DNA of 64,000 nucleotides. It comes from a virus. Position 1 is the first letter of the stretch. Every line of letters starts with the position of its first letter. The notes under the pieces were generated by a model that saw nothing but the letters and a program-made list of their open reading frames with translations, was not told the DNA's origin and did not search any database. The position numbers and the translations under genes are program-made. Location of the stretch: IMG/VR virus record IMGVR_UViG_3300025646_005482, positions 1-64,000 of that record; one strand, given 5' to 3'. Shown here piece by piece: positions 7,385 to 28,404 of the stretch.

Positions 7385-8323
7385 ATGCGTAATGATTTTT
7401 TATGGGTCGAGAAGTATCGTCCCAAGACTGTAAGTGATACTATTCTTCCAGTTGATCTGAAGAAAACGTTTCAACAATTTGTAGATCAACAAAATATCCC
7501 AAACCTCATCCTCACTGGCGGTCCCGGTGTAGGTAAGACGACCGTCGCTCGAGCAATGTTAGAACAACTCGAATGCGACTACATCGTCATCAATGGCTCG
7601 ATGAACGGCAACATCGATACACTTCGTGTAGAGATACAACAGTTTGCTTCATCGGTCTCACTCAGTGGTGGTCGTAAGTACGTCATTCTCGACGAAGCAG
7701 ACTACCTCAACCCTAACTCCACACAACCAGCACTTCGCAATTTTATGGAAGAATATTCCTCTAATTGTGGATTCATTCTGACTTGTAACTTCAAGAACAA
7801 GATCATCGATCCTCTGCACTCTCGATGCAGTGTGATCGAGTTTAAGATCGCCAAAGAAGACAAGCCAGACATGGCAGCTCAACTCTTCAAGCGAGTCATC
7901 AACATCCTCAAGTCAGAGAATGTAGACTTCGATCAGAAAGCTGTCGCCGAAGTGATCAATAAATATTTTCCAGATAATCGAAGGATTCTGAATGAACTAC
8001 AACGATACTCTGCTACTGGCAGGATTGACACTGGTGTACTTGCTAATCTCCACGAGACTACACTACAAAATCTTGTTGGAGCTTTACGAGACAAAGATTT
8101 TACCACCGTCCGAAAGTGGGTCGCAGACAACTCAGACGTAGAAGCAGCTACCATCTTCCGTCAGATCTACAACAAGTGTTCTGACTTCATGAAACCTGGC
8201 AGTGTGCCTCAGCTCGTTCTCATCCTCGCCGATTATCAATACAAGGATGCATTCGTTGCTGATCACGAGATCAACATGACTGCATGCCTCACCGAGATTA
8301 TGGTCAACTGTGAGTTCTCGTAA
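7385..8323 (+). CDS. 44: Clamp loader large subunit (T4 gp44-like)
   Basis: A 312-residue AAA+ ATPase, near the 319 residues of T4 gp44. LWVEKYRPKTV is the family N-terminus, GGPGVGKTT (about 45-53) is Walker A, VILDEAD (100-106) is Walker B, and SRCSVIEF (about 149-156) includes the arginine finger. With gp62 it opens the gp45 ring on primed DNA. The order gp45, gp44, two small genes, gp62, regA keeps the T4 arrangement with insertions. Confidence 0.95.
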   Translation: MRNDFLWVEKYRPKTVSDTILPVDLKKTFQQFVDQQNIPNLILTGGPGVGKTTVARAMLEQLECDYIVINGSMNGNIDTLRVEIQQFASSVSLSGGRKYVILDEADYLNPNSTQPALRNFMEEYSSNCGFILTCNFKNKIIDPLHSRCSVIEFKIAKEDKPDMAAQLFKRVINILKSENVDFDQKAVAEVINKYFPDNRRILNELQRYSATGRIDTGVLANLHETTLQNLVGALRDKDFTTVRKWVADNSDVEAATIFRQIYNKCSDFMKPGSVPQLVLILADYQYKDAFVADHEINMTACLTEIMVNCEFS

Positions 8324-11106: not shown

Positions 11107-11668
11107 ACTAATCCTCACAGATTGTGATGGAGTCATGCTCGATTGGATGTATTCATTCGATCAGTGGATGAAGAGGCACGGTTATCGTATTCAACATCCG
11201 GGTGAGTATGACATTGGTAAGAAGTATGAAGTAGGTATGTGCGAGAAGAAGAGACTAACACGCATGTTCAACGAGTCTGCTTCTATCCGTAAGATTCCTC
11301 CTCTTCGAGACGCTATCAAATACATTCGTAAACTACACGAAGAACATGGCTATGTATTCCATGTGATCACATCGTTGAGTGATGACGAGTATGCCCAACA
11401 TCTCAGGACGAAAAATCTTTGTGAGACGTTTGGTCATACAGTCTTTGAGAAGTATGTGTACCTCGACTGCGGTGCAGATAAGGACGAGGCGCTTGCTAAA
11501 TATCAAAACAGTGGTTGTTACTGGATTGAAGACAAGCCAGAGAATGCACACGCAGGATTTGTTGCTGGTTTGAATAGTATACTGATGGCACACGGTCACA
11601 ATGCCAACGAAGAAACATTTACTCGTGTGCAAAATTGGAAAGAGATCTACGAGATTATTGTTGGATGA
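11096..11668 (+). CDS. HAD-family phosphatase (5'(3')-nucleotidase-like)
   Basis: A 190-residue protein with LTDCDGVMLDW (about residues 7-17; Asp9 nucleophile and Asp11), VITSLSDD (motif II Thr/Ser) and YWIEDKPENA (motif IV). The cap between motifs I and II is helical as in deoxyribonucleotidases. It probably dephosphorylates a nucleotide or sugar phosphate; substrate not inferable. Confidence 0.75.
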   Translation: MKDKLILTDCDGVMLDWMYSFDQWMKRHGYRIQHPGEYDIGKKYEVGMCEKKRLTRMFNESASIRKIPPLRDAIKYIRKLHEEHGYVFHVITSLSDDEYAQHLRTKNLCETFGHTVFEKYVYLDCGADKDEALAKYQNSGCYWIEDKPENAHAGFVAGLNSILMAHGHNANEETFTRVQNWKEIYEIIVG

Positions 11669-13188
11669 TAATTGATAATCCTATAATTGATGATTTTTAT
11701 CATGTTCTTTTTAGTGGTAAAAAGGAAGAGATCCGCGGTACACAAATTGAACGTTATTTCAATGATTTTAGGCATGTACGTATAGTTCCATATTATACTA
11801 TCAGAGAAAGGACAAACAATGAGCAAAAACCAATAAATCATTTTGCAACCGCGGTGCAATCATATCAATCGGCATTGCAAGATGGGATTGAGTTAAACAC
11901 TAAAACTTTTACTGATAGTCCCCAACGAGGCACGATAGAATTTTTCTATCGTTGGACCATCAAGATGAATTGGTTGATCAATGACATTCGAAAGAGAGGA
12001 TGTTGTGAACCAATATGGGGTGTAATTCGACCGAATCAAACAAAATTTAATGAAGTAGAATACAGCTATCACGTCCATCCTGGCACTTTTAGAATCAACG
12101 CCTTTGAATTGATGGATCTTAATCAAGATTGTGTAGTCTTCGACGCATTCGAAGTTTTTCATGATTTTCCAAAAGTTTCACTAGCAGATATTTTAAATCT
12201 ATATGATGATCCTGCTGGTACCACTGTCGAAGTCAGTATACTACAACAAGATACTAGCTACATGACTCCTCAAGTATTGAACATGAAATCTAAAGGAATC
12301 AATTGTAGTATGACACCTTCTCTCAAAAAGCATGAGAGGAAAGTACGACACATGTTCAAGCATCCTATTCAAATCTTTATTGGTTATGATAGTCGACATG
12401 GTGATGCTACCAATGTTTGTCACAACTCTATCATCGACAGATTGAATAGACAAACTAGTCTCGATCATGTCAAAATACATCATCTCGATACAAGTAAAAT
12501 TCCTGGTTGGACTAGAGAATATAAGAATCAATCTACTGAATTTTCATACTCTCGTTTTCTAGTACCATATTTGTCTGATTACAAAGGAATCAGTATATTC
12601 GTTGATGACGACTTTATCTTTAGACAAAATCCTCTTGCTCTTGCCTTATATTTGTCTGACGAGCATTCTGTTGCCTGCGTAAAACACAACTTTGAGCACA
12701 AATTTGATACCAAATTCAATAATGAAAAAGATGTATGGTATCCGAAGAAGTTATGGTCGAGTTTGATGGTGTTTAATAATGCCCATGAAGATTGTAAAAA
12801 ATTGACACTCGAAACTGTACAAGAACAAACAGGAAAATACTTGCATCAATTCGAATGGACTGATGAAGGCAAAATAGCAGATCTACCGAAGAAATGGAAT
12901 TGGTGTGAAGGCTATGATTATGTGATGGACGCGCATCAAAGCCACGCTTTGCATTGGACAAGAGGAGGACCGTGGGTAAAAGGTATGGATACCAGGCATA
13001 TTGCCTGTCTTGAACTCTATGACTATCATCGATATAGATCAGTACGTGGTACAGAAAAAGAGTTTACATATGAAGCAAAACAGGTTAGTATGTTAGATAT
13101 AAGAGAATATTATGACATCGAGAATCCAATCGATATTGCTGAAGACGGAACTCGAATATGTCAAGAAATAAATAGAGATGTTCGTTGA
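11665..13188 (+). CDS. Two-domain protein with C-terminal glycosyltransferase (GT8-like)
   Basis: 507 residues from ATG 11665, overlapping the HAD stop by 4 nt. The first ~220 residues are an unrecognised domain. The C-terminal ~270 begin IQIFIGYDSRHGDA and include SYSRFLVPYL and ISIFVDDDFIFR (D-D-D at about 313-316), a GT-A nucleotide-sugar site like that of GT8 enzymes; HWTRGGPWV near the end fits the family's HxxGxxKPW region. AT-rich compared with the core replication genes. Its stop lies just upstream of the tmRNA acceptor piece, so both may share a transcript. Confidence 0.7.
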   Translation: MIIDNPIIDDFYHVLFSGKKEEIRGTQIERYFNDFRHVRIVPYYTIRERTNNEQKPINHFATAVQSYQSALQDGIELNTKTFTDSPQRGTIEFFYRWTIKMNWLINDIRKRGCCEPIWGVIRPNQTKFNEVEYSYHVHPGTFRINAFELMDLNQDCVVFDAFEVFHDFPKVSLADILNLYDDPAGTTVEVSILQQDTSYMTPQVLNMKSKGINCSMTPSLKKHERKVRHMFKHPIQIFIGYDSRHGDATNVCHNSIIDRLNRQTSLDHVKIHHLDTSKIPGWTREYKNQSTEFSYSRFLVPYLSDYKGISIFVDDDFIFRQNPLALALYLSDEHSVACVKHNFEHKFDTKFNNEKDVWYPKKLWSSLMVFNNAHEDCKKLTLETVQEQTGKYLHQFEWTDEGKIADLPKKWNWCEGYDYVMDAHQSHALHWTRGGPWVKGMDTRHIACLELYDYHRYRSVRGTEKEFTYEAKQVSMLDIREYYDIENPIDIAEDGTRICQEINRDVR

Positions 13189-13189
13189 A

Positions 13190-13405
13190 GTTTGTATTAA
13201 GAAGTTTGGACGCGGGTTCGACTCCCGCCGCCTCCACCAATTTTGCGGTACCCAGTTTCGGGGGCGTTATGGATTCGACAGGCAACTGAAAGCAAATGGA
13301 GAACCGTCCATGAACGCTGACGTAAAACGGTGGTTCAAAACTATAACTGCCAATGATGACAGTTACTACGGTGATTACGCACTAGCTGCATGATCCCGCG
13401 GGGCG
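13190..13405 (+). ncRNA. ssrA: Circularly permuted two-piece tmRNA (ssrA), tag ANDDSYYGDYALAA
   Basis: The tRNA-like 3' part comes first: T arm GCGGG-TTCGACT-CCCGC (13212-13228), acceptor strand CGCCTCC (13229-13235), then encoded ACCA (13236-13239). After a 20-nt intervening stretch (13240-13259) comes the mature 5' end GGGGGCG (13260-13266), which pairs with the acceptor strand over all 7 bp including G3-U, the alanine identity pair. GGATTCGAC (13271-13279) is the tmRNA D-loop signature, and GGACGCGGGTTC is identical to E. coli. The tag frame starts after ATAACT at GCC 13349 and ends at TGA 13391-13393, encoding ANDDSYYGDYALAA, a ClpXP-type degron tail. GCAAAT and GTTTGT can form P2. Such RNAs rescue stalled ribosomes. 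The outer ends given here are approximate. Confidence 0.93.
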
Positions 13406-13441
13406 GCCACTGCCTTGTTATCCAAGTGTGGCATTTTTTTT
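13405..13441 (+). terminator. Rho-independent terminator after the tmRNA coding piece
   Basis: GCCAC (13406-13410) pairs with GTGGC (13428-13432), with a possible inner TTG/CAA stem, followed by a run of eight T at 13434-13441. It lies 12 nt after the tag stop codon and would end the tmRNA precursor. Confidence 0.75.
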
Positions 13442-13466
13442 GCTATGAAAAAGCAAGGAGGAGTTT

Positions 13467-13955
13467 ATGTATAAGCTATTACTTGTTGTAATGTGTATGA
13501 TATGGTCAGAAGCTGCTGCTTCCGACGAGTGGATGCAAGATGAAATCCAATGTCTTGCGAAGAACATCTACTTTGAGGCGAGAGGAGAATCTCTGACCGG
13601 TAAAATTGCGGTCGCCAATGTCACGATGAATCGTGTGAAACACCATAAGTATCCTAGTACGGTTTGTGGTGTAGTGACTCAAGCTAAATGGTATGTCAAT
13701 TGGAAAGGCAATCGTTTACCTAAACGAAATCAGTGTCAGTTCAGCTGGTTTTGTGATGGTAATCCTGACGAGCCGGTTGACATGCGAGCATATCGAGACA
13801 GTTTACGTGTAGCAGAAATTGTGTATAATGGGTATAAAGATCTGACAAATGGATCTTTGTTTTACCATAATACGAAAGTAGAACCATATTGGGTCGCTTC
13901 GATGGTTAGAACTAAGAGCATTGGTGCTCACGTATTTTATAGGTATGATAGATGA
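13467..13955 (+). CDS. SleB-like cell wall hydrolase with signal peptide
   Basis: A 162-residue protein. Residues 1-19 form a signal peptide (MYKLLLVVMCMIWSEAAAS). IYFEARGES (34-42; Glu37 candidate catalytic), AVANVTMNRVK, YPSTVCGVV and CQFSWFCDG are the hallmark blocks of the SleB/CwlJ hydrolase family. It would cut peptidoglycan from the periplasm, exported by the host Sec system. AAGGAGGAG lies 8-16 nt before the start. It overlaps the next gene by 4 nt. Confidence 0.9.
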   Translation: MYKLLLVVMCMIWSEAAASDEWMQDEIQCLAKNIYFEARGESLTGKIAVANVTMNRVKHHKYPSTVCGVVTQAKWYVNWKGNRLPKRNQCQFSWFCDGNPDEPVDMRAYRDSLRVAEIVYNGYKDLTNGSLFYHNTKVEPYWVASMVRTKSIGAHVFYRYDR

Positions 13956-15619
13956 AATTTTATAGCTGCTTTCCAACAAGAACTCTCATGTTGGCGATAG
14001 TAGTCGGTGCAATCTTATTACTCGCTGCCTGTGGTGGTGGCGGTGGTTCAGGTTCACCAGACATTCCCGCAAATCCAGCACAAGGCACAGTCCTTTCATC
14101 TACATGTAGCGGCTACACGCTGGTCGAACAAGTTGCAGACGGCAACGGTGGTCAGAACGAAAGACGTACAGAAAACTCATCTCAGTGTGGATATACCGGT
14201 CCACCTCCCGCAGGCACATTTCTCGATGAATATTGTGATGGTTATACTCTCGTCACTGTTACCGCAGATGGTAATGGAGGTGAAGAGTATGATTACGATG
14301 AAAACAACGAAGAGGTTTGTGGTTATATTCCTCCACAATTTACACCAGCTGGCACACCACTAGGCGATCCCTATTGCGCTAGATCTCTGGCCGAAGATAG
14401 GTTCAGACAACTATGGGATTCTATCAGACATTTTCTTGGTGATGATCTTCTGCAAGATTATGCAGACGGTGAAGGTGGACAATATACAGAACGTGTACAA
14501 CATATCGCCGAAGAATGTTGGGTTCAAATGGAACCACCTGAAGATTGTCCTACGGTCGCGTCATCTACAGGTGATTCTCGATACGAGTTTTACACATGTG
14601 ATGGTATCAAACAGCTGACCGATATCAGTTTTCCGTATGATCCCGATAATTGGGATCTTGCCATCGTAGACATGTTCATCATCTTCGATACTGCACTCGA
14701 TAACGAAGAAGATCTTGATGGTATGACCGTACAAGATTTTATTCTAAAACAATTATGGGAAGCAAATCATTACTTCGCAGCATCAGGTGTATCAGTCAGA
14801 GTTAGATTAGCAGGATATAAAGAAGTCGCCGTAGCATCAGGAGACTTGTATAGACAGTACAATGCATTCTTCAGAGACCGATATGAATTTCAAGGAGTCA
14901 CATCGGCGCAACGACAAGCTAATGCTGACCTGATGTTCTTGTTCAAGAAAAGACCAGATAATCCCATTGCGTGTGGTGTTGCACAGTTAGACGGTACTCG
15001 TGGCGTCACTTACACGAGAGGAATCATACAATGTTTCCATAACAGTGTGTTCCAAGAAAATGCACAAACACGTTACTATGAACGAGCACAAGAAACATTC
15101 GTTCATGAGATTGGCCACCTGTTTGGTTTACAACATGAATGGAAAGATGCATCAAGCACTGGATTATTCGAACACTCGTATGGTTATAACTTGCCCGGAT
15201 ATAACCCACGAAAAGACGATCCAGCATATGAGGGTGTATGGAGCGGATACGGTACCATCATGAGTTATGCTGATCTAGCGACTGGTCGTTTCTCTGATCC
15301 TGACGTCACGTGTTATTTTCCGGAAGAAGCAGGAGAATATGCAGGTCAAGCAGTTGTCATGGGAACAAATGGTGGATGTTTCTGCTTGGATCCAGTAGAA
15401 GAACAACCACCGCCCACAGATTCTCATCAGCACCTACAGAGAGTGAGATATATAATTAGTCAGCTGAGTGAATTAGAGCATGATGTTGGATCAGTTTACG
15501 GTACTGCACCAGCATTTTGGAATACACAGCCTATTTTTGAAGAGGATCTTGGTGATCTATCGAACATCGAGATGATTAAACGAGAAATGGACAGAAACCA
15601 AAACATCTGCTTATTTTGA
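13952..15619 (+). CDS. Lipoprotein zinc metalloprotease (metzincin type)
   Basis: A 555-residue protein with a lipoprotein signal ending LLLAAC (Cys27) followed by a Gly/Ser-rich linker. Residues ~45-150 hold tandem copies of a module of the form GT-x-L...C-x-GYTLV...ADGNGG...CGY. The catalytic domain has ETFVHEIGHLFGLQHEW (about 380-396), a full HExxHxxGxxH metzincin site, and GTIMSYAD (about 434) as the Met-turn. Together they identify a zinc endopeptidase probably anchored to a host membrane, or carried on the virion. Eukaryote-like matrix proteases share this fold. Targets are unknown; the start overlaps SleB, so the two are co-expressed. Confidence 0.85.
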   Translation: MKFYSCFPTRTLMLAIVVGAILLLAACGGGGGSGSPDIPANPAQGTVLSSTCSGYTLVEQVADGNGGQNERRTENSSQCGYTGPPPAGTFLDEYCDGYTLVTVTADGNGGEEYDYDENNEEVCGYIPPQFTPAGTPLGDPYCARSLAEDRFRQLWDSIRHFLGDDLLQDYADGEGGQYTERVQHIAEECWVQMEPPEDCPTVASSTGDSRYEFYTCDGIKQLTDISFPYDPDNWDLAIVDMFIIFDTALDNEEDLDGMTVQDFILKQLWEANHYFAASGVSVRVRLAGYKEVAVASGDLYRQYNAFFRDRYEFQGVTSAQRQANADLMFLFKKRPDNPIACGVAQLDGTRGVTYTRGIIQCFHNSVFQENAQTRYYERAQETFVHEIGHLFGLQHEWKDASSTGLFEHSYGYNLPGYNPRKDDPAYEGVWSGYGTIMSYADLATGRFSDPDVTCYFPEEAGEYAGQAVVMGTNGGCFCLDPVEEQPPPTDSHQHLQRVRYIISQLSELEHDVGSVYGTAPAFWNTQPIFEEDLGDLSNIEMIKREMDRNQNICLF

Positions 15620-15783
15620 AACACTTAGAAGAAAACGGGATGACGTACTTTGGCCACCTCAGACGAGCGTGGTCGTTGTCGTTCGTCTTATTCATACATG
15701 GATTGTTTCCTGAAATATGGAAAACAAAAGCGACGGATATATTATTAGATGAAAAAGAGAAACTACACAGCAGAGACAGTTAG
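15616..15783 (+). CDS. Small DUF6356-like protein
   Basis: A 55-residue protein starting at TTG 15616 (overlapping the previous stop) or ATG 15640. It reads [20 protein letters not shown], then a hydrophobic [13 protein letters not shown] and [12 protein letters not shown], the pattern of the DUF6356 capsule-related/phage family (H-x-x-x-x-x-TYF-x-HL ... HA-x-xP). It overlaps isocitrate lyase by 35 nt. Confidence 0.65.
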
Positions 15784-16990
15784 ATCTCTACAAGGTTCTG
15801 TACAAATTGAACACACGCTTGCAAAAATGGGGGCAAGCAAGCTGCGTAAACTCTTTGAAGAACACGATTACATTAACACGTTTGGAGCATACAACGGTCA
15901 ACAAGCTATTCAACATGTTAAAGCAGGGTTGCATGCGATTTATTTGTCTGGATGGCAAGTTGCAGCATCTCAGAACTCAGCTGGTGAGGTATACCCTGAT
16001 CAGAGCCTTTATCCTGTTAACAGTGTGCCTGATGTTGTTCGTAACATTAACAATGCCTTCAGACGACAAGATCAAATCGAATACGCCGAATCGGGAACCG
16101 GGTTTCCCTTCGCACCGATTATAGCAGACGCAGAAGCAGGATTTGGAGGAGTCTTAAATGCTTACGAATTGGCACGAAATCTTATTGAGGCAGGCGCAGC
16201 GGCCGTCCACTTCGAAGACCAACTCTCCTCAGCCAAAAAGTGTGGACACCTCGGAGGAAAAGTCCTCATCCCCACCGACCAAGCTATTCGTAACCTCAAC
16301 GCTGCTCGGCTTGCTGCTGATGTGGCTGATACTGATACTGTTATCATTGCGCGAACCGACGCAGAATCGGCTAAACTCATGGTCTCTGACCAACATGTCA
16401 TCGACAAAAAATACGTTAAGTATTACGGAGGTCAGGGAGGAGCCAAGATCAGAGGAAAAACATCAGACGGATTCTACGAAATCGAGGAAGGTCGAGGACT
16501 AGAATTTGGTTGTGAACGTGGCGCAGCGTATGCTGAATACGCCGACCTCGTATGGTGTGAAACTTCCAAACCATGTCTCAAAGAAGCAAAGCGATTCTCT
16601 GACGCTGTGAGAGGGTCAGTTCCTGATGCGATGCTTGCATACAACTGTTCACCATCTTTCAACTGGCGCAAGTCCATTCCTGGTGATGCAGAACTACGAG
16701 ACTTCCAATATGAACTCGGTAAGATGGGATTCAAATTCCAATTCATTACTCTTGCTGGTTTCCATGCAACGAATCATGCTATCTTCCAATTCGCAAGGTC
16801 TTATAAGAAAATGGGCATGTTGGCATATAGCTACTTGCAAGAAGAAGAGTTTGCAGCTGAAGAGTTTGGATACACAAGCACTAAACATCAACGCGAAGTT
16901 GGCGTAGGTTACTTCGATCGAATTGCAACAGCATTGGGTTCGTCATCTACAGCCGCTATGAAAGGATCAACCGAGGAGGAACAATTTTGA
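15749..16990 (+). CDS. aceA: Isocitrate lyase
   Basis: A 413-residue protein, slightly shorter than E. coli AceA (434). [20 protein letters not shown] (about 125-134, Mg-binding Asp), the catalytic loop [14 protein letters not shown] (163-176, Cys165) and [12 protein letters not shown] (about 300) are all intact, so the enzyme should be active. It splits isocitrate to glyoxylate and succinate, the first step of the glyoxylate shunt used on acetate or fatty acids. No malate synthase is visible in the window, so the product would feed host enzymes. The surrounding genes are phage-type and overlapping (35 nt upstream, 4 nt downstream), which argues against host contamination. Confidence 0.93.
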
Positions 16991-25825: not shown

Positions 25826-25853
25826 TTACTTTTCCTATATTTTGTGGTAGAAT
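25825..25853 (+). promoter_or_regulatory. Promoter for DNA polymerase
   Basis: TTTACT 25825-25830, 17-nt spacer ending TGTGG, TAGAAT 25848-25853. The expected start point falls at about 25860, next to the first usable ATG of gene 43. Confidence 0.7.
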
Positions 25854-25860
25854 GGTTTAC

Positions 25861-28404
25861 ATGATGACAGACTTTTACACCAATGTTTCTCAGTACGGTA
25901 ACTATCTGTATGTTCGTGGTTTCAACGAGGATGGCTCGCGAATGCAGCGTCGGTTCGTATATGAACCCTACCTCTTTGTTCCATCTAACGTAGAGACTGG
26001 TTACACAGACATTCACGGTAACCATGTGCAGAAGAAGATGTTCGATAACATCAGACATGCACGTGATTACATCAAGAGATACGAGGAGGTCGAAGGATTC
26101 AATGTCTACGGCCTCGATCGTTATCCTTATGTATTTATATACGACACCTTTCGAAACCAAGAAGTTGACACGAGCAAGATCAATGTAGTCAACATCGACA
26201 TCGAGGTGGCATCAGACGATGGTTTCCCCGAACCTGAAGACGCTGACAAAGAAATCACAGCTATCGCTCTTCGTCGTCGTAATATGACAGTCGTACTCGG
26301 TTGTGGTGACTTCAAGTCAAACGACAAGAATGTGTACTACATCAAGTGCAAGCACGAATATCATTTGCTACATAAGTTTCTCGATGTGTGGCAAAACATG
26401 GATCCAGATGTTATCACTGGTTGGAACACAGAGTTCTTCGATATTCCGTACCTCGTCAATCGTATCACTAAAATCCACAGCGAAGAGATGGCACAACGTC
26501 TCTCACCGTGGGGTATCATCAAAGAAAAGCGTGTGTTCCGTCAAGGCAGTGACAAGCAATCACAGACATTCCAAATCTTCGGTGTGTCAAGCCTCGACTA
26601 TCTCGCCATCTACAAGAAGTTTCGACTACAACCTCGCGAATCGTACAAACTCGACTTCATTGCCGAGACAGAACTCGGTACCAAGAAGTTGGACTACAGC
26701 GAGTACGGTAACTTGCACGAGTTGTACAAGAACAACTTCCAAAAGTTTATCGAATACAACATTCGTGACACAGACCTCATCTTCGACTTAGAAGAAAAAC
26801 TCGGCTTCATCGAACAGATCTATGCGATTGCTTATGATGCAAAGGTCAATTACAACGACACTCTCGCCACTGTTGGTATCTGGGATGTGATCATCCACAA
26901 CTATCTGATGGATCAGAACAAGGTCGTATCGATGAAACGTCCACCTAAGTCCGATCGTATGATCGAAGGTGGTTACGTCAAAGAACCTATCGTTGGCATG
27001 CACAAGTGGGTAATGTCATTCGACCTCAACTCTCTGTATCCACACCTCATTCAGCAATACAACATCTCGCCTGACACTGTGATCAGCAAGACAGATGACC
27101 TGTTCACTATCACGAAGGATGCGAGTGTTGATACGGTACTCAACGAAGAACTCGACCTGACTGCGCTGAAACATTACAATGTGACCATGACACCGAACGG
27201 TAAGATATACCGTAAGGATTATCAAGGCTTCTTGCCTACTCTCATGGCCAAGATGTACGATGATCGTGTGTTGTACAAGAAGAAGATGTTCGAAGCGAAG
27301 TTGGCCAATCAGAAGAATCCATCACGTGAACTACAGATTGACATCAGTCGATACCATAACCTACAACACGCCAAAAAGATTCAGCTGAACGCAGCTTATG
27401 GTGCACTCGCCAACAAATACTTCCGATGGTTCGACAACGAGAATGCCGAGGCCATCACCATGGCTGGTCAGTTGTCTATTCGATGGATCGAGAAGAAACT
27501 CAATGTATGGATGAACAAGATACTCGAGACAAAAGGTCGTGACTACGTAGTCGCAATCGATACCGATTCGGTGTATGTCTCATTCGACAAGATGGTCGAG
27601 ATGACTAAACCAAAAGATCCTGTAGAATTCCTTGACAAGGTTGCAAAGCAACAAGTCGAAACATTCATCGATCGATCGTATCAAGAACTTGCCGACTACA
27701 CGAATGCATATGCACAGAAGATGATCATGAAACGTGAGAACATCGCTGACAAGGCCATCTGGACGGCCAAGAAGCGATACATCATGAATGTGTATGACTC
27801 CGAAGGTGTACGTTACGACGAGCCTGATCTCAAGATGATGGGCATCGAAGCCATTCGATCGTCAACTCCTGCGGTATGTCGCGAGTACATTAAGAAAACA
27901 CTCGAACTCATCATGTCTACAGACGAAGCCACTGTGCAGAAATACATCGCAGACATTCGTAAAGAATTTAGAACACTCAGCTTCGAAGAGGTTGCATTCC
28001 CTCGTAGTGTTAACTTTGTCAAGTGGGAAACTAACCACAAAACTGGTCAACGATTTCCTGGTACGTACGCCGATAAGGATACTATTTACAAAAAGGCTTC
28101 ACCGATTCAGGTCAAAGGTGGTCTGATATACAACCACTATTTGCATAAATATAACCTAACTAAAAAATACGAGGAAGTCAAAAGCGGTGAGAAGATCAAG
28201 TTCAGTTACTTGGTCAAACCGAATCCATTCAGAGATACTGTGATCTCATGTCCTGATGTATTACCACCCGAATTTGGCCTAGAAAATTATATTGACTATG
28301 ATACACAATTTGTCAAAGGCTATCTCGATCCAATCGAAATCATCTTACATGCTATCGGTTGGAAGTCTGAGAAAGTTGCAACACTTGAGGATTTCTTTGC
28401 ATGA
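25861..28404 (+). CDS. 43: Family B DNA polymerase (T4 gp43-like)
   Basis: About 847 residues (T4 gp43 is 898). Exonuclease site NIDIEVASDDGFPEP (about residue 110), polymerase motif A SFDLNSLYPHLI (about 385), motif B region NAAYGALANKYFRW (about 510) and motif C AIDTDSVYV (about 565) are all intact, so both activities should be present. The C-terminal EKVATLEDFFA resembles the T4 clamp-binding tail. ATG 25861 (or 25864) is preferred over 25852 because the latter overlaps the -10 box. No ribosome site is visible between the promoter and the start. Confidence 0.95.
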   Translation: MMTDFYTNVSQYGNYLYVRGFNEDGSRMQRRFVYEPYLFVPSNVETGYTDIHGNHVQKKMFDNIRHARDYIKRYEEVEGFNVYGLDRYPYVFIYDTFRNQEVDTSKINVVNIDIEVASDDGFPEPEDADKEITAIALRRRNMTVVLGCGDFKSNDKNVYYIKCKHEYHLLHKFLDVWQNMDPDVITGWNTEFFDIPYLVNRITKIHSEEMAQRLSPWGIIKEKRVFRQGSDKQSQTFQIFGVSSLDYLAIYKKFRLQPRESYKLDFIAETELGTKKLDYSEYGNLHELYKNNFQKFIEYNIRDTDLIFDLEEKLGFIEQIYAIAYDAKVNYNDTLATVGIWDVIIHNYLMDQNKVVSMKRPPKSDRMIEGGYVKEPIVGMHKWVMSFDLNSLYPHLIQQYNISPDTVISKTDDLFTITKDASVDTVLNEELDLTALKHYNVTMTPNGKIYRKDYQGFLPTLMAKMYDDRVLYKKKMFEAKLANQKNPSRELQIDISRYHNLQHAKKIQLNAAYGALANKYFRWFDNENAEAITMAGQLSIRWIEKKLNVWMNKILETKGRDYVVAIDTDSVYVSFDKMVEMTKPKDPVEFLDKVAKQQVETFIDRSYQELADYTNAYAQKMIMKRENIADKAIWTAKKRYIMNVYDSEGVRYDEPDLKMMGIEAIRSSTPAVCREYIKKTLELIMSTDEATVQKYIADIRKEFRTLSFEEVAFPRSVNFVKWETNHKTGQRFPGTYADKDTIYKKASPIQVKGGLIYNHYLHKYNLTKKYEEVKSGEKIKFSYLVKPNPFRDTVISCPDVLPPEFGLENYIDYDTQFVKGYLDPIEIILHAIGWKSEKVATLEDFFA

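Follow-up and report, generated by a model that had tools for sequence, protein, structure and literature searches.

A probable two-piece tmRNA gene in a T4-like phage and a tag variant kept across its phage family

A survey of 18,146 phage genomes found tmRNA in 402, and 53 of the 133 unique phage tmRNA structures are two-piece, 50 of these 53 being from marine or aquatic samples; the two-piece tmRNA of the marine methylophage Melnitz was described there as well (PMC9004378). A 2025 tmRNA database of 97,179 sequences, the source of the merged RF04321 model, holds 79 unique phage sequences (PMC11915505). The locus presented here lies in a stretch of 64,000 nucleotides (the window) belonging to a virus record of 160,330 bp. 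Its initial annotation regarded a phage copy of a permuted tmRNA as unusual, a view that the 53 two-piece phage tmRNAs already reported do not sustain (PMC9004378). A phage-encoded permuted tmRNA is thus a known kind of gene, and what the locus adds to it is a phage-specific tag variant at the level of a family.

Similar to the Methylophilales phage Melnitz and the Pelagibacter phage Mosig, the window has a permuted tmRNA in a large aquatic phage related to T4-like cyanophages (PMC9004378). The tmRNA of Melnitz was reported to be closer to alphaproteobacterial ssrA (PMC9004378), whereas that of the window falls on the beta-type side, and the Mosig tag, GEDNFALAA per ARAGORN, differs from the window's 14-residue tag with its YYGD. 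A further difference from these two phages is that cmscan against Rfam found no riboswitch in the window. The DNA polymerase of the window (25852-28404) is T4-like and about 48% identical to polymerases of cyanomyophages and marine single-cell viruses.

ARAGORN called a permuted tmRNA at 13147-13484, the sole RNA gene called in the window, with the tag ANDDSYYGDYALAA. The Rfam model RF04321 (tmRNA_permuted) matched 13180-13393 over its full length in cmscan, with 111 bits (gathering score 47) and an E-value of 8.5e-21. The model of the betaproteobacterial type, beta_tmRNA (RF01850), matched from end to end at a permissive threshold (78.6 bits, E 5.2e-24); this falls slightly short of the gathering score of 84, which the related phage loci L022 (181) and L023 (167) exceed. 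The one-piece model RF00023 was absent from the window's Rfam matches, including those at the permissive threshold, and by covariance models (alpha_tmRNA, RF01849) and trees the window does not group with alphaproteobacterial-type genes. The parts of the gene and its two neighbors, all on the plus strand, are as follows.

11635..13188 (+): glycosyltransferase-like upstream gene, related to nucleotide-diphospho-sugar transferases of other phages
13190..13239 (+): 3' (acceptor) piece; ARAGORN 3' tRNA domain, RF04321 alignment from 13180; predicted ends
13190-13195 (+): P2 3' strand, from the sequence
13212-13228 (+): T arm (stem-loop), from the sequence; stem 100% paired, with compensatory changes in relatives
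13229-13235 (+): acceptor 3' strand, from the sequence; 100% paired, with compensatory changes in relatives
13236 (+): discriminator A, from the sequence
13237-13239 (+): encoded CCA, from the sequence
13240..13259 (+): intervening transcribed segment of 20 nt, expected to be removed (predicted)
13260..13433 (+): 5' (coding) piece, by ARAGORN and Rfam models; predicted ends
13260-13266 (+): acceptor 5' strand; 7 of 7 pairs, G3-U70
13267-13282 (+): D-arm region, by ARAGORN and Rfam models
13292-13297 (+): P2 5' strand, by ARAGORN and Rfam models
13305-13337 (+): pseudoknot PK1; two stems, covariation counts
13305-13308 with 13319-13322 (+): PK1 pairing CGUC/GACG; pair counts in relatives
13311-13315 with 13333-13337 (+): PK1 pairing UGAAC/GUUCA; pair counts in relatives
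13349-13390 (+), stop TGA at 13391-13393: tag reading frame ANDDSYYGDYALAA, by ARAGORN and from the sequence
13406..13441 (+): hairpin GCCAC...GUGGC followed by eight T (terminator-like), from the sequence
13467..13955 (+): downstream gene, cell wall hydrolase (PF07486)

Among the sequence features of RF04321 members, the gene has an acceptor piece upstream of the coding piece, a resume codon, a tag frame ending in hydrophobic residues, and a stop; the gene order, the tRNA-like domain with its alanine identity pair, P2, PK1, the resume codon, and a tag ending in LAA are all kept in relatives. Reading the sequence gives the CCA end at 13239, the start of the acceptor 5' strand at 13260, and the 20-nt spacer just where the initial annotation had placed them, and its 7-bp acceptor pairing with a G3-U pair is borne out by the seven pairs, G3-U70, and the encoded CCA. 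G3-U70 is the alanine identity pair, and it is present in 96 of 97 phage loci. When the 27 pairs of the acceptor, T, P2, and both PK1 stems were followed through ten sequences of the window's clade, 92% of cells were paired and nine pairs had changed on both sides; none of 500 shuffles reached the covariation score, and slid versions of the pairing gave 40-55%. The P2 helix, which joins the two pieces, is 87% paired with changes on both sides, and the PK1 stems are 90% and 81% paired, the 81% of stem 2 coming from an alignment with two poorly aligned rows (L140 and L170). Chance is excluded, since the E-values of the model matches are joined by a covariation score that no shuffle attained. ARAGORN, RF04321, and the covariation agree on what the initial annotation had proposed and had suggested examining with ARAGORN and Rfam covariance models, a complete circularly permuted tmRNA in a phage genome, and the two programs, which are independent of each other, match it as permuted.

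Comparison of the reading frame among 63 distinct members of the family shows that the D, G, [DE], and L-A-A positions of the tag hold while synonymous codons vary, and the codon table has the glycine and the Leu-Ala-Ala nearly invariant. By these comparisons, both the RNA structure and the reading frame are maintained. T loops other than UUCGANU were seen in three loci with a fully paired T stem (TGCAAAT in L026, GGCAGAG in L037, and TGCGAAT in L137).

The stop codon of the glycosyltransferase-like gene ends at 13188, one base before the P2 strand, and the tmRNA lies beside the same gene in close relatives, in which that gene is 47-61% identical. On the other side, the hairpin and T run at 13406-13441 make the 13441 end point of the initial annotation a reasonable one. 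The hairpin that ends the coding piece has counterparts with altered sequence in the relatives L034, L040, and L137, and the T run after it is absent in L035 and L038. A generic terminator scan missed the hairpin and T run, and the generic scan for promoters and terminators returned nothing above shuffles. A Shine-Dalgarno-like AAGGAGGAG lies between the eight T and the cell wall hydrolase gene. The second gene downstream of the tmRNA, at 13952-15619 (+), encodes a protein with a reprolysin-like (M12B) metallopeptidase domain. Further downstream, at 15749-16990 (+), is a gene for a member of the isocitrate lyase family (PF00463, E 8.6e-87), a kind of metabolic gene not usual in phages. Over its whole length the protein shares 77% identity with an unnamed protein of Phage C48C1 (OQ984149.1), a phage in which no permuted tmRNA was found.

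The spacer between the two pieces varies among relatives, with a median of 67 nt in the phage family versus 31 in sampled bacteria. In the window and its closest relatives it is 20 nt long and without structure (z of +0.79 for the window), whereas the spacers of L035 and L040 form long stems that continue the acceptor stem (z of -3.2 and -4.7). With no extended stem like that of several relatives, the window's spacer may be processed differently. Two loci, L006 and L012, have a permuted tmRNA with a spacer of just 5 nt and the tag AANDDYFGDIALAA. The 150-nt spacer of L041 holds an ORF of 55 codons, MRIQMKGGDEYDALSRKSKGLHRWRSGERKALKRKYNKRVRKTSFVGGVLDSTGN (7410-7577, +; identical in L031), which is preceded by a Shine-Dalgarno-like AAAGGAG, has its stop inside the tmRNA coding piece, and shows weak similarity to Caulobacter phages only.

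Compared with the betaproteobacterial RF01850 type, the window has the same gene order, an end-to-end model match, a tag of the same ANDE/ANDD...ALAA form, and a place in the same large tree group (96*), though the window itself falls in a phage-only clade of 16 rows (100/99*). It differs in scoring 78.6 bits against the 84 required and in its tag, the sampled bacterial beta tags having 10 residues, four fewer. The alphaproteobacterial RF01849 type is also permuted, and its tags, mostly of 11-14 residues, are partly similar in outline (ANDNFAEEVRLAA, ANDNYSEEFALAA), but its D arm reads GATCGAC (one example) rather than TTCGAC and it forms a separate tree group. The one-piece RF00023 type shares the tRNA-like domain, P2, PK1, resume codon, and tag; unlike it, the window has its acceptor half before its coding half.

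The initial annotation had read the tag as a gamma-like frame with an inserted SYYGD. Rather than being a one-off of this kind, ANDDSYYGDYALAA belongs to a family of phage tags with the patterns ANDD[NS]YYG[DE][YF]ALAA and AND[AD][FY][FY]G[DE]x[AR]LAA. Pattern scans of IMG/VR that were blind to the tag gave 26 contigs with permuted tmRNAs, most of them of the alphaproteobacterial type (tags ADAELVAA, ANAFKPEVTVPMSVFADQELVAA, ANKKALGFADLTVGMSELRLAA). Seven of the 26 group with the beta type, and five of these seven (L002, L003, L006, L012, and L023) have [FY]G[DE] in the tag, the others being L022 (ANDEVYALAA) and L045 (ANDSQFALAA). Tag-directed scans gave 18 contigs with the 14-residue form and 81 with the 13-residue form; these scans demanded the motif, so that family size is a count and the fraction with the motif is known only from the 5 of 7 of the tag-blind scans. 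Among 79 loci examined from the 13-residue scan, ARAGORN called 67, all 67 as permuted and none as standard, and the tags were ANDAFYGEDRLAA (18), ANDAFYGEERLAA (13), ANDAFFGETRLAA (9), ANDAFYGEMRLAA (5), and others. The family thus comprises roughly 100 IMG/VR contigs with tags of 13-14 residues containing [FY]G[DE], every tmRNA that ARAGORN calls in it being permuted, and the phage group carrying these tags is large and apparently undescribed.

On inspection of their sequences, several family contigs carry ribonucleotide reductase, topoisomerase, or PhoH-like genes together with metabolic genes, as in large T4-like phages. Peroxiredoxin-like genes lie near the phage tmRNA in L113, L119, and L163, some of which also have TerC-like and AhpD-like genes (from the sequences). 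When the window tmRNA and five diverged relatives were compared by blastn to 50,697 phage records, only ordinary ssrA-like T-arm matches were returned, none at E 0.01. No isolate with this tmRNA family was thus identified, blastn being weak for RNAs of this kind.

Bacterial tags were then the comparison of interest for the motif. A permuted tmRNA was found in 137 of 399 Pseudomonadota genomes, and [FY]G[DE] occurred in none of the 130 bacterial permuted tags that ARAGORN gave for the sampled Pseudomonadota and beta-type genomes, most of which have 12 residues, with 10 in the beta types (ANDESYALAA). The pattern of the 14-residue tag combined with the D-arm TTCGAC had no match in 84,980 genomes, in a scan that had no built-in positive control and used exact patterns, which miss variants. 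A pattern for both tag lengths, likewise exact, matched none of 369 genomes from the class of Brackiella and none of 385 from the class of G502 (0 of 754 together); the tmRNA of G502 itself is of the alphaproteobacterial type. Six of the family tag strings had no occurrence in the papers searched. ANDDSYYGDYALAA aligns equally well with the beta-type ANDESYALAA plus four residues and with alphaproteobacterial tags, e.g., ANDNYSEEFALAA.

The ssrA tag of E. coli has distinct binding sites for SspB and ClpX, and with four residues between the two sites, as in the engineered DAS+4 tag, degradation driven by SspB is rapid (PMC8138137). Divided as ANDDSY + YGDY + ALAA, the phage tag is like DAS+4 in this spacing; unlike DAS+4 it is natural and keeps ALAA, and the resemblance is one of length only. 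Reading the tag as a short tag with a DAS+4-like spacer was kept only as this analogy of length, as alphaproteobacterial tags align as well, and the length of the phage tag also recalls theirs (ANDNFAEEFAVAA).

Trees were built from the tRNA-like domain and the stretch up to the tag, with the tag excluded (about 156 columns); the tag-directed scans bias the choice of phage rows in them. In the first tree, the phage beta-type rows, the bacterial beta-type rows, and ten alpha-like phage rows make up one side of a starred branch (96*), and the alphaproteobacterial bacteria lie apart from that side. In the more careful tree, 25 phage rows and all 11 of the bacterial beta rows come under one starred fork (96/93), a phage-only clade of 16 rows (100/99*) includes the window, and the bacterial beta-type two-piece tmRNAs (among L046-L061) nest inside the phage sequences. 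Placing the phages in a single clade (p 0.126) or the bacteria in a single clade (p 0.27) is not rejected by an AU test. That some betaproteobacteria took their beta-type two-piece tmRNA from this phage family, the [FY]G[DE] tag being lost en route, is an idea we regard as rather doubtful.

No tRNA gene was found in the virus record. SmpB and SspB genes were likewise not found in its 160,330 bp, nor SmpB in 19 related records, by searches that detected SmpB in 10 and SspB in 2 of 14 reference genomes. The host must therefore supply SmpB. What can be read from the sequences is the structure of the gene, its conservation, and the absence of a phage SmpB, and we put the probability that the window gene is a functional phage-encoded, circularly permuted (two-piece) tmRNA at roughly 85%.

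Its most likely function would be ribosome rescue and ClpXP tagging with host SmpB, and rescue or tagging during infection is plausible. Going by established tmRNA biology, the precursor would be cut by host tRNA-processing enzymes and charged by the host alanyl-tRNA synthetase. Host SmpB and EF-Tu would then deliver the tmRNA to ribosomes that stall on mRNAs broken in the course of infection, and the stalled product would receive alanine and ANDDSYYGDYALAA and pass to host ClpXP. In this way the phage would add rescue capacity of its own. The tag, being longer than most bacterial ones, would put more distance between ANDxxY (SspB-type) and ALAA (ClpX-type). Candidate reasons for the kept [FY]G[DE] are the fit to a host adaptor, a changed rate of degradation, and the efficiency of tag translation.

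A tentative extension, to which we give well short of an even chance, is that the tag steers its products to another fate, through weaker or stronger proteolysis or a different protease or adaptor, so that the phage would edit the outcome of rescue. Distant phage tmRNAs have kept [FY][FY]G[DE], and the bacterial tags sampled lack it, which suggests selection on the peptide itself. The C-terminal LAA, an ordinary ClpX signal, is nevertheless kept, and no phage SspB was found in the record. An altered fate is compatible with rescue and tagging and refines that explanation.

We consider it improbable that the RNA instead acts on host trans-translation as a decoy or a modulator, e.g., through competition for SmpB, and that tagging is only a by-product. 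There is a precedent in the tmRNA of mycobacteriophage DS6A, which lacks a CDS and inhibits the endogenous tmRNA in E. coli (PMC11915505), and a phage without SmpB would compete for that of its host. However, the intact tag frame, conserved in amino acids with synonymous variation among the 63 family members, would be needless for a pure decoy. That the locus is a decaying remnant of a captured host ssrA with no present role, e.g., from imprecise prophage excision, is very improbable: integration often takes place at host ssrA, and ssrA fragments occur in phage records (PMC9004378), but this gene is full length with compensatory changes, keeps its genomic place in relatives whose neighbor gene is only 47-61% identical, belongs to a T4-like phage, and has a tag unlike any sampled bacterial tag, conserved with synonymous codon variation.

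The usual view of phage tmRNAs is that they are captured host genes. Here, about 100 viral contigs keep a tag motif unseen in sampled bacteria, though their RNAs are otherwise quite diverged, and this is the pattern expected if the peptide does something for the phage. It raises the question of whether a phage tag changes the fate of rescued proteins during infection. The tree, in turn, makes it conceivable that one lineage of a bacterial housekeeping RNA derives from phages; if a phage origin were true, a phage gene would have become a housekeeping gene, and most of the radiation of permuted tmRNAs in this lineage would have taken place in phages.
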